From: Akkermansia muciniphila
Lineage (GTDB): Bacteria > Verrucomicrobiota > Verrucomicrobiia > Verrucomicrobiales > V1-33
NCBI GenBank assembly: GCA_943333275.1
Contig: CALQSQ010000009.1
Location: 1-64,000, forward strand
DNA length: 64,000 nt
Reading direction: 5' to 3'
In this document: in pieces, positions 685-8,822 of the stretch
Position numbering within the stretch: position 1 is the stretch's first letter
How the letters are laid out: each line of letters starts with the position of its first letter
The notes under the pieces: model-generated
The model's input: only the letters and a program-made list of their open reading frames with translations
What the model was told of the DNA's origin: nothing
The model's database searches: none
Translations under genes and position numbers: made by a program

Positions 685-1026
685 CTAGCTGACCCAAGCG
701 TCAGTTTGCGTTCCTGACTCCACGGTTTTCTCTGGGGTGAAGACGATTTCCCAGGTGGCTCCGTCACCCGCCAAGGGTCCAGCCATGCAACCAAAATCAA
801 TTCGGAAGGTATTGGGGCGGAGGCGTCGGACTTCCAGGCAGAAGCCAGAGTCTTCGTTGGTGATGAATAATTCAGCCAGAGTCGCACCCGCATCCAGTTC
901 TTGATTCACCAAGCTGCAGGCGGTAATTCCAAAGGGGCCTTCCATACTCGTCAGACTCCAGCGCAGAAACGCCAGCAGGCGGACATCCCCCAGCCGACGG
1001 CGGGCATTGGCAATGCTGGGATTCAT
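685..1026 (-). CDS. Hypothetical protein, 113 aa
   Basis: I do not recognise this protein. It has natural composition without low-complexity runs, one possible short hydrophobic stretch and no signal peptide. The central part (residues 40-95) looks like a compact alpha/beta or beta-rich domain with scattered Cys and aromatic residues. It is the last of four minus-strand genes (2019 to 685) that are closely spaced and start just left of a divergent XRE regulator, so it may be co-transcribed with the two HNH-type proteins. Coding status is supported by the absence of a better frame on either strand and by its place in the run of genes. Confidence 0.55.
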   Translation of the reverse strand: MNPSIANARRRLGDVRLLAFLRWSLTSMEGPFGITACSLVNQELDAGATLAELFITNEDSGFCLEVRRLRPNTFRIDFGCMAGPLAGDGATWEIVFTPEKTVESGTQTDAWVS

Positions 1027-1108
1027 GACGGGGATTCAGTGGGCCTCTTGGGGCGCTTGGCTTTGGGGGCGGGGGTGGAGGAAAGGGGCGGTGAGGTTTT
1101 CATATTGG

Positions 1109-1312
1109 TTATTTTCTGTTTGCCCGTTTCCGACGAGCCTTCTGCTCACGTTCCCGAGCCCGTATCTTGGCACTCCATATCCGCAGTAAGATTCCCGCCG
1201 CTACTGCGCCAAGAATCAGGATCCAGAAGGAAGGAGATAAACTGAGGAGGCTCTTTGTGACCACCTCGAAAGCACCGGAAACCGTCGGTGGATTGGCGGT
1301 GAGGAGATTCAT
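1109..1312 (-). CDS. Small single-pass membrane protein, 67 aa
   Basis: The sequence has a polar N-terminus, one clear transmembrane segment (about residues 30-46, FWILILGAVAAGILLRIW) and a strongly basic C-terminal tail (REREQKARRKRANRK), which predicts the tail in the cytoplasm. There is no recognisable domain. It lies 52 bases downstream of the HNH gene and upstream of the 113-aa gene on the same strand. Small membrane proteins next to nucleases occur in some defence loci, but nothing in the sequence shows such a role here. Confidence 0.5.
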   Translation of the reverse strand: MNLLTANPPTVSGAFEVVTKSLLSLSPSFWILILGAVAAGILLRIWSAKIRAREREQKARRKRANRK

Positions 1313-1364
1313 TTAGGGAATGGGTGTTTTGGGGCGCTTGGCTTTGAGGGCGGGGTGGGTGCCT

Positions 1365-1703
1365 TTAGGGCTTCTTCTTGGAAACAAGCCCAAACTTCCC
1401 GAGTAGCCAAGATAGGAGTGCTTCCTGATCGTCAATGGTTGCACGACGCACTTGGGCGAGCAGATGAATGCGGTCGGGCTTTGGCAGCGCAGCGTTTTGC
1501 AGTCCTTCATTACAGTTTGTGCAGACGGCGCGGAGGTTTTGGGGCGTATCGTCTCCACCCTTGGATTTGTCTTTAATGTGCCCCATCGTAAGCCGAACCG
1601 AACGCGCCGATCCCAGCGGATCGGGTTCACCCGCGGCTACGCCGCACATCTGGCAGGTATATCCATTCCGCTCCAGCACCCACTCTTGTATTAACTCAGA
1701 CAT
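1365..1703 (-). CDS. HNH endonuclease domain protein, 112 aa
   Basis: A compact HNH nuclease with a treble-clef zinc site. Cys17-x2-Cys20 and Cys61-x2-Cys64 would bind the zinc; His42 (in MGHIKDKSKGG), Asn56 and Asn65 are the HNH residues. The C-terminal 30 residues form a helical tail (LLAQVRRATIDDQEALLSWLLGK). An AAGG stretch five to six bases before the ATG supports this start. The start overlaps the end of the upstream paralogue by 8 bases (1696-1703), so the two are probably translationally coupled. HNH proteins of this size occur in mobile introns, phages and restriction systems; the substrate cannot be told from sequence. Confidence 0.85.
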   Translation of the reverse strand: MSELIQEWVLERNGYTCQMCGVAAGEPDPLGSARSVRLTMGHIKDKSKGGDDTPQNLRAVCTNCNEGLQNAALPKPDRIHLLAQVRRATIDDQEALLSWLLGKFGLVSKKKP

Positions 1704-2019
1704 GCTTACCTTGAAGCCAGTTAAGAACCGCTTTCTGATCCTGCCTGGATGCTTTGCGAATCATGGTGAGTAACTGGATCAAATTTGTTGGTGGCTGGTA
1801 ACGAAGGGAGGTAAGACCGCTAGAACAACAACGACAGATGGTGTGTAAGTTGCCTGGTAACTTTTCGCCTCCATAAAACGGAGGGATTACAAATCGAAGT
1901 CTGGCGGATCGTGCCTGAAGTGGTGCCCCGCACATCTTGCAGAGCCAATTGTCGCGCTGGTGCACACCGAGGCGCATGGCACGTGGAATTATTGAGATAG
2001 GCCGGACGACGAAATTCAT
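1696..2019 (-). CDS. Degenerate HNH-like zinc protein, paralogue of the downstream HNH nuclease, 107 aa
   Basis: This protein aligns along its length with the 112-aa HNH protein encoded immediately downstream. It shares the first zinc pair (Cys27-x2-Cys30), the second pair (Cys62-x2-Cys65), the GNL core and the C-terminal helix LLTMIRKASRQDQKAVLNWL. The segment that carries the catalytic His in the partner reads RLRFVIPPFYGG here, and the final Asn is replaced by Ser66, so it is probably not a nuclease. It may be a structural, DNA-binding or regulatory partner. It starts 72 bases from the divergent regulator if that gene begins at 2092. No strong Shine-Dalgarno sequence is visible. Confidence 0.75.
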   Translation of the reverse strand: MNFVVRPISIIPRAMRLGVHQRDNWLCKMCGAPLQARSARLRFVIPPFYGGEKLPGNLHTICRCCSSGLTSLRYQPPTNLIQLLTMIRKASRQDQKAVLNWLQGKHV

Positions 2020-2091
2020 ACCGATGTGTCAAAAGAGCACAATGTGCCAAACAAGCACACAGCAGCAAGTGGTTTCTGGTATCGCGGAAGG

Positions 2092-2388
2092 ATGGCAGAA
2101 TCCCAGAAGAAAACATTGAGAGTCAGAAAAAACGTGGTCGGTGATCGTGTGCGGCAGGCCCGAAACACAATCGTGCCACCGATTACCCAGGACCAACTCG
2201 CGGGCAGGCTAGCGGCCATCAAAGTAACAATTGACCGTCCGGGCATCGCAAAACTGGAGAATGGCACGCGCAGGGTCTTCGATTTCGAAGTCCTCGCTCT
2301 GGCACAGGCTTTAAGGGTGGACCTCCGTTGGCTGCTCGGAGTGCCAAACATAGCACCGCACGGACGCCGAACCGCCTCTGCCTCGTGA
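2092..2388 (+). CDS. XRE-family HTH transcriptional regulator, 98 aa
   Basis: A small DNA-binding protein with a helix-turn-helix of the XRE/Cro-C1 type: helices around VGDRVRQARN, TQDQLAGRLA, the recognition region with DRPGIAKLENG, and the closing FEVLALAQALRVDLRWLLG. The frame stays open upstream to a GTG at 2026, but that would leave only 6 bases to the divergent gene; ATG 2092 leaves room for a shared promoter. Its TGA overlaps the ATG of the following HNH gene (TGATG), so the two are coupled. It probably controls its own operon, the divergent HNH operon, or both, as such regulators usually do. Confidence 0.85.
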   Translation: MAESQKKTLRVRKNVVGDRVRQARNTIVPPITQDQLAGRLAAIKVTIDRPGIAKLENGTRRVFDFEVLALAQALRVDLRWLLGVPNIAPHGRRTASAS

Positions 2389-3080
2389 TGCCTCTTTCGT
2401 TTGATACAGCCGCCTACCTGCGGACAGCAACAGGACGAGCGAAATCAGATGTCGCGAACAAACTGGTCAGCATGCTTCTTCATCATCTAAGCAAAGAGGT
2501 TTCAACTTTGTTCGGCGAAAGTATCACAGATACATCTTACAGGTCGTCAGTTGCCACGCATTTTGGAAATCTGTGTGCTTACTGCAGTCATTCGTTGGAT
2601 TTTGATCGGGTAGCTGTGGAGCATCTCGATGGCATGAATCGATTCCGATTGGGGTTGCACGTGCCAGGCAATGTCGTGGTGGCGTGCAAGAAATGTAATG
2701 GCGAGAAACGTCGTGACGATCAGCAGCCCACCCTAGTGCTCGCTAATACCGGCTGGGAATCCTTTCTTTCCCACGATTCATCGAGATGTGGTTCGGGTTG
2801 CAAAACCTGCGCATACTGGATGGGCGTCTGGCCAGATATTGACCAGCGCCGGAGGGCGCTTCAAAGTGCGTTAACCAAACTTAAAGGATTCCGAGAAGGC
2901 TACCACGTAGCCATCAATTGGATGGAGCAGCACAGGCAAAGCTTAAGTAGATCCGTGGAACAGCTATACCGTGACGGGCAAAGTTTCGCAGTGATGGAGA
3001 TTGGGAAAATCGTGCGAGAGGTAATCAAGCCTCAAGAAGCAAATCCTGCTGGCGGAAGCTTAGAATGTCCTGTTGCGTGA
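2388..3080 (+). CDS. HNH endonuclease, 230 aa
   Basis: A second, larger HNH-type nuclease. Zinc pairs are Cys63-x2-Cys66 and Cys100-x2-Cys103. The nuclease core reads VEHLDGMNR with His79, then GNVVVACKKCN with Asn95 and Asn104. A further possible zinc knuckle (Cys134, Cys138, Cys141) follows, and the C-terminal 80 residues are helical. The ATG overlaps the stop of the XRE gene, which fixes the start and implies co-translation. Its 3' end overlaps a convergent 53-aa ORF. A regulator-nuclease pair divergent from two further HNH-type genes suggests one functional locus, perhaps restriction or anti-phage, which is inference. Confidence 0.8.
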   Translation: MPLSFDTAAYLRTATGRAKSDVANKLVSMLLHHLSKEVSTLFGESITDTSYRSSVATHFGNLCAYCSHSLDFDRVAVEHLDGMNRFRLGLHVPGNVVVACKKCNGEKRRDDQQPTLVLANTGWESFLSHDSSRCGSGCKTCAYWMGVWPDIDQRRRALQSALTKLKGFREGYHVAINWMEQHRQSLSRSVEQLYRDGQSFAVMEIGKIVREVIKPQEANPAGGSLECPVA

Positions 3081-3186
3081 CATTCCCCAGCAAGACACGG
3101 TCTCCATTGATTTCCCGGAGTCTAAAGCGGATGTCTTCCTCGCCTTTTTGAGGCTTGCTGTATTTTACAAGGTCGTTCAATTGCAT
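3025..3186 (-). CDS. Small hypothetical protein, 53 aa, overlapping the HNH gene tail antisense
   Basis: Reading the minus strand from ATG at 3186 gives a 53-residue protein beginning MQLNDLVKYSKPQKGEEDI and ending with TGA at 3025. Its charged, balanced composition (for example IRFRLREINGDRVLLGNVTQQDI) looks like a genuine folded small protein. It overlaps the last 56 bases of the convergent HNH gene. I do not recognise the family. It could be a small stand-alone protein or the start of a truncated one. Confidence 0.45.
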   Translation of the reverse strand: MQLNDLVKYSKPQKGEEDIRFRLREINGDRVLLGNVTQQDILSFRQQDLLLEA

Positions 3187-6680: not shown

Positions 6681-8822
6681 ATGAATCTCACCTCATTCAC
6701 CCGCTGGTTCTCAGCCATGGCTCTCGGTCTGCCTGCCATGATCCTGGCGCAGGAAACCCCTCCGTCGCAAAAAATTGACGCGTTCATCGAGTCTGCCCTC
6801 AAGCAGCACAACGTTGCCCCCAATCCTCCCACGAACGACGAGACATTCTGTCGCCGGATTTACCTGGATGTCACCGGCCGTATCCCGACCAAGGACGAGC
6901 TTTCCACATTTCTGACCGATTCCGATGCTGGGAAACGTTCCAAGCTAATCGACAAACTCCTCAATTCCGAAGGCTTCAACAGCCACACCTACAACTGGTG
7001 GGCCGATGTCCTCCGGATCCAGACCGCCGGGATGAATGGCAATGGTGCCGAGGCCGGCATGGCCTACGCAGCCTGGGTCAAGAAAGCCATCGCTTCGAAC
7101 ATGCCCTACGATCAGTTCGTCCGCGAACTGGTCACCGCCAAGGGCTACGTCTGGGACAACGGAGCCGTCGGCTACTACATTAGAGATGCTGGCATGCCTC
7201 TGGACAACATGTCCAACACCGCTCAGGTCTTCCTCGGAACCCGTGTGGTTTGTGCTCAGTGCCACAACCATCCGTTCGATCACTGGAAACAGTCCGATTA
7301 TTACGAAATGGCTGCTTTCACCTACGGAGTGGACACCGAAATGAGCCCCTATGCGATCAATCCCGCCTTGGAAACGGTGCTCATGTCGAATGAAAAGAAA
7401 GCCAAAAAAGGCCGCAAAGCTCCCGATGTCCGCGCCCTCGAAGGCATGATCAAGGACATCCTGACCCCCCTCTCCTACGGCGTTTCCGAAACCAAGCGGG
7501 TTTTAAAGCTTCCAGCCGATTACAAATACGACGATGCCAAGCCAGATTCCGAGATCACCAAGGCGAAGGCCCTCTTCGCCATTGATCGCGTAGACAAAGA
7601 CGGTGCCCCTGTCAAGGTCGACGGAGATATGCGCAACCACCTGGCTGATTGGCTGTGCAACAAGCAAAATCCCCGTTTCACCACCGTGATCGTGAACCGC
7701 ATCTGGAAGCGGGCCATGGGGATCGGGTTGATCGAGCCAGTGGATGATTTCAAGGACGACACCCTCGCATCCAACCAACCCCTGATGAAATACCTTCAGG
7801 AAACCTTGGTGCGCGACAAATACGACATGAAGAAACTCATGAAGTATATTTACAACACCCGCACCTACCAACGTCAGTCCACTCCCGGGGATGTTTCTCT
7901 CGAGTCAGCCTATTATTTCCCCGGTCCCCTCCTCCGCCGGATGACTGCGGAGCAAATCTGGGATTCCATCGTCACCCTCATGATCCCAAATCCCGATGGC
8001 CGTAAAAAGACCGAGGGATTCCAAGCCCGACTCGACAAAATGAAAGAGGCTGCTGAGGAACTCAAGGCCCGCTATGTCGACACCAAGCGTCAGGGAGCCG
8101 AAGACCTCGTCGCCCTCGCCAAAGCCATGCAGGGAGTCGGCAAGATCAACGAAACCAAGATCGCCGAATTGCGCGCCAAAATTACCAAAGCCCGCGAGGA
8201 CAAGGACGAAAAGACCGCCCGTGAACTTCAGGCCGAAGTCCAAAAGCTGACGCTCGAACAGGAAACCGCTGTCTACAAAGCCCAGGCTGAGAAGGAAAAG
8301 GAAATCGACGCCAAGCGGAAGAGCACTCCTTTTGCCAACAAGCCCCTCGCCATGGATTCCGACGCCAAAAAGGGCACCATGAAAGATGGCAAGATGATGC
8401 AAACCTCCGATGCCCCGGTCAGTGCCGCTGAATACGTGGGCTTCGACGAGAAATACTTCCGTGCCTCCGAACTCCCCAGCCCAGCCCCTGCCGGACACTT
8501 CCTTCGTGAGTTCGGTCAGTCCGAGCGTCTGGTGATCGAAAATTCCTGGATTGACGCTTCCGTCATTCAGGCCCTGGCCCTCATGAATGGGGAGATCTTC
8601 GAGGAACTCACCGGTGCCAAGAGCCAGCTCACCAAGGGCGTGGAATTCGCCCTCACCCCGACGGAAAAAGCCACCAAACTCTGGCTCACCGTGTTGGGCC
8701 GCAATCCCACGGACAAGGAGAAACAATTGGTAACCGAAGCAACCGCCGGCAAGGGCAAGGATTCCTGGAAGGACCTCTTCTGGGCTCTGCTCAACGGCCG
8801 CGAATTCATTTTTATTCAATAA
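6681..8822 (+). CDS. Secreted DUF1549/DUF1553 protein, 713 aa
   Basis: A Planctomycete/Verrucomicrobia-type secreted protein. After a signal peptide (MNLTSFTRWFSAMALGLPAMILA) comes a DUF1549 (PSCyt2) domain with FCRRIYLDVTGRIPTKDEL. A CAQCHNHPFDHW segment contains a CxxCH c-type-haem-like motif. The DUF1553 (PSD1) part is interrupted by a charged coiled-coil insertion (about residues 440-570, rich in Lys, Glu and Ala). The ATG at 6681 is chosen because it leads straight into the signal peptide; the frame is open further upstream. It is followed 70 bases later by a DUF1501 gene, the usual partner. These pairs are thought to act on polysaccharides or in periplasmic redox processes, but the function is not established. 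Confidence 0.88.
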   Translation: MNLTSFTRWFSAMALGLPAMILAQETPPSQKIDAFIESALKQHNVAPNPPTNDETFCRRIYLDVTGRIPTKDELSTFLTDSDAGKRSKLIDKLLNSEGFNSHTYNWWADVLRIQTAGMNGNGAEAGMAYAAWVKKAIASNMPYDQFVRELVTAKGYVWDNGAVGYYIRDAGMPLDNMSNTAQVFLGTRVVCAQCHNHPFDHWKQSDYYEMAAFTYGVDTEMSPYAINPALETVLMSNEKKAKKGRKAPDVRALEGMIKDILTPLSYGVSETKRVLKLPADYKYDDAKPDSEITKAKALFAIDRVDKDGAPVKVDGDMRNHLADWLCNKQNPRFTTVIVNRIWKRAMGIGLIEPVDDFKDDTLASNQPLMKYLQETLVRDKYDMKKLMKYIYNTRTYQRQSTPGDVSLESAYYFPGPLLRRMTAEQIWDSIVTLMIPNPDGRKKTEGFQARLDKMKEAAEELKARYVDTKRQGAEDLVALAKAMQGVGKINETKIAELRAKITKAREDKDEKTARELQAEVQKLTLEQETAVYKAQAEKEKEIDAKRKSTPFANKPLAMDSDAKKGTMKDGKMMQTSDAPVSAAEYVGFDEKYFRASELPSPAPAGHFLREFGQSERLVIENSWIDASVIQALALMNGEIFEELTGAKSQLTKGVEFALTPTEKATKLWLTVLGRNPTDKEKQLVTEATAGKGKDSWKDLFWALLNGREFIFIQ

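Follow-up and report, generated by a model that had tools for sequence, protein, structure and literature searches.

An XRE–HNH nuclease gene pair found repeatedly beside the remains of NaeI/NgoMIV-family restriction–modification systems

Restriction–modification (R-M) systems are seen as selfish and hard to lose, because without the methyltransferase (M) the restriction enzyme (R) kills the cell. Within the type II systems, both NaeI and NgoMIV recognize the site GCCGGC. A conflict between R-M and type IV systems has been described (PMC8989522), and McrBC is reported to kill cells upon entry of an M gene (PMC2614495). The nearest parallel that we found to the loci described below concerns wH fusion nucleases, beside some of which methyltransferases (MTases) are reported to be inactivated by frameshifts (PMC11037411).

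The locus analyzed here resembles several known systems in part. It lies in the window, the whole stretch of 64,000 nucleotides under study, which forms the first part of contig C9 in a draft genome of 5.8 Mb whose relatives in our searches are Verrucomicrobiota, and its core consists of a gene for an XRE-family regulator followed by one for a predicted HNH nuclease that we call BIG. The small HNH proteins and the pieces of M and R genes beside BIG are members of the NaeI/NgoMIV type II family, but M is absent or truncated at every XRE–BIG locus, and neither XRE nor BIG was found within ~1.5 kb of any of the 44 intact M loci examined. Like type IV enzymes (McrA-like HNH and wH-HNH), BIG is a predicted HNH nuclease without an M of its own, and the moderate depletion of intact M in BIG genomes recalls the exclusion of M genes reported for McrBC (PMC2614495; see also PMC8989522); unlike them, it has no known methyl-binding domain, comes with a dedicated XRE and operator, and sits inside a destroyed M locus. 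The small XRE protein with a predicted palindromic operator directly before the nuclease gene is reminiscent of C-protein-controlled R-M systems, except that here M is missing and the conserved gene is BIG, which is none of the family's known restriction enzymes. HNH homing endonucleases are likewise encoded at or in other genes, whereas at BIG loci the host gene is destroyed rather than precisely interrupted, with ragged ends. Finally, Septu (PtuAB) and retron HNH effectors have weak similarity to the HNH core of BIG but do not match it as full-length structures, and no PtuA ATPase is present among the neighbors common to at least three of the 60 BIG loci, as judged by ORF clustering. The features of the locus in the window are:

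685–1026, minus strand: 113-aa protein (ORF)
1109–1312, minus strand: 67-aa predicted membrane protein (ORF)
1365–1703, minus strand: hnhA, 112 aa, HNH half of an enzyme (profile positions 77–185 of 199), catalytic residues kept; Pfam HNH, 2e-8
1696–2019, minus strand: hnhB, 107 aa, degenerate HNH half, divergent to XRE; HNH_5, 6.5e-6, just under the cut-off
2043–2059, no strand: palindrome of 17 bp (TGTGC-N7-GCACA), the predicted operator of XRE, lying between the divergent hnhB and XRE starts
2092–2388, plus strand: XRE-family regulator, 98 aa from ATG, frame open from GTG 2026; HTH_31, 2e-4
2388–3080, plus strand: BIG, 230-aa HNH nuclease (by sequence), start overlapping the XRE stop; HNH_5, 0.004
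2565–2720, plus strand: HNH (zinc beta-beta-alpha) core of BIG, residues 60–111, resembling solved structures

All of the ORFs, the 8-base overlap of hnhA and hnhB (1696–1703), the TGATG junction of XRE and BIG (2386–2390) and the HNH residues are exactly as an earlier sequence-only reading of this DNA had described them. That reading was also right that the 107-aa protein keeps CxxC...CxxC while both the HNH His and the "CN" Asn are missing from it (GHIKDKSKGG...CTNCN versus RFVIPPFYGG...CRCCS). Its larger proposal, a six-gene unit in which active and inactive nuclease subunits are coupled, is not borne out. A tandem pair of intact and dead HNH genes beside BIG was seen only in the window, and about one quarter of BIG loci have a single, mostly dead, HNH gene divergent to XRE. 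The 113-, 67- and 53-aa ORFs (the last described below) have no relative in any fetched XRE–BIG cassette, the 113-aa protein having only weak matches, in three other genomes, and the 113-aa and 67-aa genes stand outside the conserved unit.

The window begins at the contig edge with a CGCCTCT tandem repeat (positions 1–55), and the left flank, which ends 684 bp before the 113-aa gene, is missing beyond that point. At the other end of the locus, a 53-aa ORF (MQLNDLVKYSKPQKGEED...; 3025–3186, minus strand) is convergent with BIG and overlaps its end; it has no relative among the fetched loci and no family match. The aquaporin gene on the right side of the locus has a 92% identical counterpart in genome G028, where neither XRE–BIG nor R-M genes lie upstream of it. 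Because the left side of the window is a contig edge, an empty site could not be defined from this comparison.

The conserved unit is the plus-strand gene pair of XRE and BIG, with its own operator. Relatives of BIG were found at 59 loci among ~85,000 species genomes, all from Verrucomicrobiota or Acidobacteriota as judged by record titles and most of them 43–64% identical, which together with the window gives a set of 60 loci; within the order, 13 of the 189 other genomes have relatives at ~49–54% identity. No relatives were detected in viral contigs, phage records or plasmid records, so nothing points to transport by phages or plasmids. An XRE gene lies immediately before BIG, and in the same orientation, in 56 of 56 usable loci, the window included; left out of this count are three loci that start inside or too close to BIG, and L113, a short BIG fragment without XRE. 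The coupling of regulator and nuclease noted in the window is thus general, and the earlier concern that homologues might occur without their partners applies to hnhA and the two small proteins, but not to XRE–BIG. Both genes are strongly constrained, with dN/dS of ~0.05–0.18 in close pairs (~0.05–0.15 for XRE). At one locus, L094, fragments of a second XRE copy lie on the opposite strand (6767–6935), and a second operator-like palindrome is located downstream of BIG (6977).

Among 47 BIG sequences, residues E78, H79, N95 and N104 and the zinc cysteines C63, C100, C103, C134, C138 and C141 are invariant. The AlphaFold model (pLDDT 92) comprises a long helix, the HNH core and a helical C-terminal half. 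A known fold for the full-length protein was sought, but the search returned only matches of the HNH core (4h9d GmetHNH and Cas9 HNH domains). No Pfam or NCBIfam model matches BIG at or above its cut-off, and by sequence BIG is a new family of HNH nucleases.

XRE is preceded by a 17-bp palindrome, TGTTC-N7-GAACA or a close variant, in 55 of 55 loci. At least nine of its ten core bases are matched in 51 of these loci, compared to none of the random stretches taken from the same loci; at the less strict level of at least eight of ten, which is the class of the window, the figures are 55 of 55 and 3.9%. The window, L074, L083 and L100 share the symmetric variant TGTGC-N7-GCACA, and in these four the putative recognition-helix residue of XRE is T, S or P, compared to mostly V or A elsewhere; this residue thus tends to vary with the predicted operator class. 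The LexA box of Verrucomicrobia has a 4-base spacer; the palindrome, with a spacer of 7 bases, is probably not a LexA box. The position of the predicted operator (2043–2059) makes ATG 2092 the most likely start of XRE, and, being located between this ATG and the hnhB start (2019), the operator may control both directions. At L064, L065 and L069, what looks like an N-terminal peptide (VFLWRTF) of the small HNH protein is the operator sequence read as codons, and the small HNH genes of these loci therefore probably start after the operator; the corresponding peptide at L076 is VFLWRSF.

The small HNH proteins of the window point to a particular R-M family. As far as their sequences tell, hnhA and hnhB are HNH halves of one restriction-enzyme family. 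hnhA, which lacks the N-terminal domain, is 62–64% identical to the HNH enzyme of L050 (genome G036), encoded directly after a C5 MTase. Its relatives at L050–L054 are open frames of 166–211 aa directly after an apparently intact C5 MTase, L054 being frameshifted. hnhB, which has lost the catalytic His and the last Asn, can be aligned to HNH-type restriction enzymes encoded after an intact C5 MTase. The nearest relatives of both small HNH proteins are restriction enzymes adjoining a C5 MTase, and in this respect the restriction link suggested from the sequence of the window was well founded. The C5 MTase family in question (family M) carries the motif PCPPFSxAGKQLG and is partnered by NgoMIV, NaeI or the HNH enzyme, often together with Vsr; the Pfam types of the R-M family are PF00145, PF09126, PF09015 and PF03852. 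A restriction gene stands alongside M in nearly all of the 44 intact M loci (with contexts of 20 from the 22 acidobacterial genomes that have intact M). HNH enzymes of ~195 aa with the N-terminal domain follow a family C5 MTase at L050–L054, L217, L220, L221, L225 and L226. This enzyme is probably a restriction enzyme for GCCGGC, and would be one more type of restriction fold, unrelated to NaeI and NgoMIV, that probably shares their site.

Remains of this R-M family are concentrated around the cassette. Profiles for the C5 MTase, NaeI, NgoMIV, the HNH enzyme and Vsr gave 63 matches in 40 of the 60 BIG loci, all of them within 1.5 kb of the cassette and none in 376 kb of outer flank. The NaeI, NgoMIV, Vsr and small-HNH profiles were built partly from BIG-adjacent sequences, the M profile was not, and the identification of the R-M families is independent of the profiles, by Pfam. 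Family M is present in 17 BIG loci, always as an N-terminal piece that starts at profile position 1–4 and ends at 24–137 of 324. These pieces occur in either orientation, most of them with their broken end adjoining the cassette, and their end points are ragged; C-terminal parts of M were not found beside BIG. At the loci that retain parts of both M and R (L057, L081, L097 and L099), it is the M–R junction that has been lost, as in L081 (M 1–55, NgoMIV 167–300), L057 (M 3–97, NaeI 176–280) and L097 (M 3–126, NaeI 1–181). No M remnant of the NaeI/NgoMIV family is left in the window. At L107, and also at L148, two N-terminal MTase pieces in the same orientation flank XRE–BIG on both sides, the second of them decayed and followed by a full-length NgoMIV gene.

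Preservation varies among the restriction genes that adjoin BIG. The catalytic His is lost in 11 of 15 HNH sequences beside XRE–BIG, as opposed to 0 of 9 beside intact M; hnhA of the window, with its catalytic residues kept, is unusual. The D-x-K residues of NaeI are lost in L061 and L097 and kept in L071 and L099, and the active-site Lys region is retained in those NgoMIV pieces whose length allows a judgment. Apparently intact restriction genes are found beside XRE–BIG at L060 (HNH), L071 (NaeI) and L084, L087 and L107 (NgoMIV), in genomes that yielded no intact family M. Mapped onto the BIG tree, the type of restriction gene changes 23 times, near random compared to a shuffled mean of 27.6, and the cassette has therefore met R-M systems many times.

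At the level of whole genomes, intact family M was found in none of the 48 BIG genomes searched, where only fragments or other MTase families occur, compared to 12.6% (24/190) of the genomes of the order and 7.4% (22/299) of those of an acidobacterial class, most of the genomes being incomplete MAGs. BIG genomes also encode complete C5 MTases away from the cassette, but the profile places these in other families, and they are not intact copies of family M; in the window's genome the sole PF00145 match, on contig C8, reaches a best family-M score of E 1.7e-33, compared to <1e-120 for intact members. One further genome, G149, is known to have both BIG and an intact family M, on different contigs. 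By rough arithmetic on these mostly incomplete MAGs, ~6 co-occurrences would be expected and one is seen (P ~0.01), a moderate depletion. In the BIG of G149 (L082), as in that of L076, Tyr takes the place of C66, the second zinc ligand in the first Cys pair (2 of 49 sequences).

We tentatively favor the reading, plausible though short of probable, that XRE–BIG has repeatedly replaced the M gene of the NaeI/NgoMIV/HNH R-M family, with BIG acting as a type IV-like nuclease in conflict with the family's methylation. It starts from the coupling of XRE to BIG, the conserved operator, the constraint on both genes and on the HNH residues, the clustering of R-M remains and the truncation of every adjoining family M, and it draws as well on the intact M loci free of XRE and BIG, the lack of intact M in the 48 BIG genomes and the loss of C66 in G149; to these it adds a presumed repression by XRE, a putative dependence of BIG on methylation and a conjectured order of events. 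XRE would hold BIG low via the operator, repressing both XRE–BIG and the divergent gene. Active BIG would harm DNA or cells carrying family methylation, and could establish itself or persist only where M is destroyed, and M and R would be lost together through cuts across the M–R junction. In the window, M would have gone in this way, with two restriction-enzyme HNH halves left behind, one with catalytic residues and one dead. Several observations run against this reading: a simple conflict model does not explain why five loci keep a restriction gene that appears intact while their assemblies contain no intact M, 20 loci have no R-M remains, BIG has no recognizable methyl-binding domain, M depletion is moderate and comes from mostly incomplete genomes, and the window itself, with its left flank cut, holds no piece of M. 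The truncation of M could instead stem from insertion plus decay. The BIG loci are a repeated record of the dismantling of R-M systems and of what replaces them, and if BIG targets family methylation they would also be a physical record of the conflict between R-M and anti-R-M systems.

Insertion lies at the heart of a rather unlikely alternative, a homing-type element in which BIG cuts M or M–R DNA and the cassette is copied into the break, followed by erosion of M and R. The HNH fold is a classical one among homing enzymes, the cassette stands at broken M and R genes in both orientations, and an HNH homing element has been published from a phage methylase (PMC11855218). L064 and L069, which share one junction downstream of a gene reading as thiC, differ by a gradient such as co-conversion would give, from ~80% identity in thiC through 92% in the M piece to 95–98% in the cassette. 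In both, a 49-aa N-terminal MTase ORF (~6700–6845) has a start that overlaps the thiC stop (ATGA). Nearly all differences in its 47 comparable M codons are silent (dS 0.50, dN 0.01, compared to a BIG dS of 0.12), suggesting either that a short M peptide is under selection or that the cassette was recently exchanged between diverged loci. However, a homing element should insert precisely, at a conserved site of a gene that is otherwise intact, whereas the M end points are scattered over 24 to 137 residues, with no C-terminal M piece beside BIG and no fixed insertion site seen, and an XRE with an operator is atypical of homing elements. It is also unlikely, in our view, that BIG is an independent, self-regulated defense nuclease at sites of defense turnover, with the R-M remains as bystanders. 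The 20 of 60 loci without such remains would suit this, as would the weak PADLOC matches of BIG to PtuB (1.6e-7) and to type IV enzymes, but a general hot spot should show mixed defense genes and some intact M, rather than a single MTase family with its three types of restriction enzyme and with Vsr, none of them further away than 1.5 kb.

Closer to the sequence-only reading is the idea that the divergent, often dead restriction protein is the working partner of BIG and provides DNA recognition in a rebuilt restriction or abortive-infection system, which we consider improbable. The dead HNH genes retain open frames and have an operator region in common with XRE, and the NaeI proteins of L061 and L097 without D-x-K residues could be of the same kind. 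In close pairs the dead HNH genes are under some constraint, with dN/dS of 0.22–0.33 in the more diverged pairs and 0.69 in the closest (L064/L069), but this is far weaker than the constraint on BIG, and such proteins are found in a minority of loci, have unrelated folds (HNH, NaeI and NgoMIV) and are often mere fragments. It is also conceivable, though very improbable, that XRE–BIG now protects or controls in place of the lost M: at loci with an intact NaeI, NgoMIV or HNH enzyme and no M, the restriction enzyme would be present without methylation, be kept in check by XRE repression and serve together with BIG as an inducible, methylation-free restriction or suicide system.
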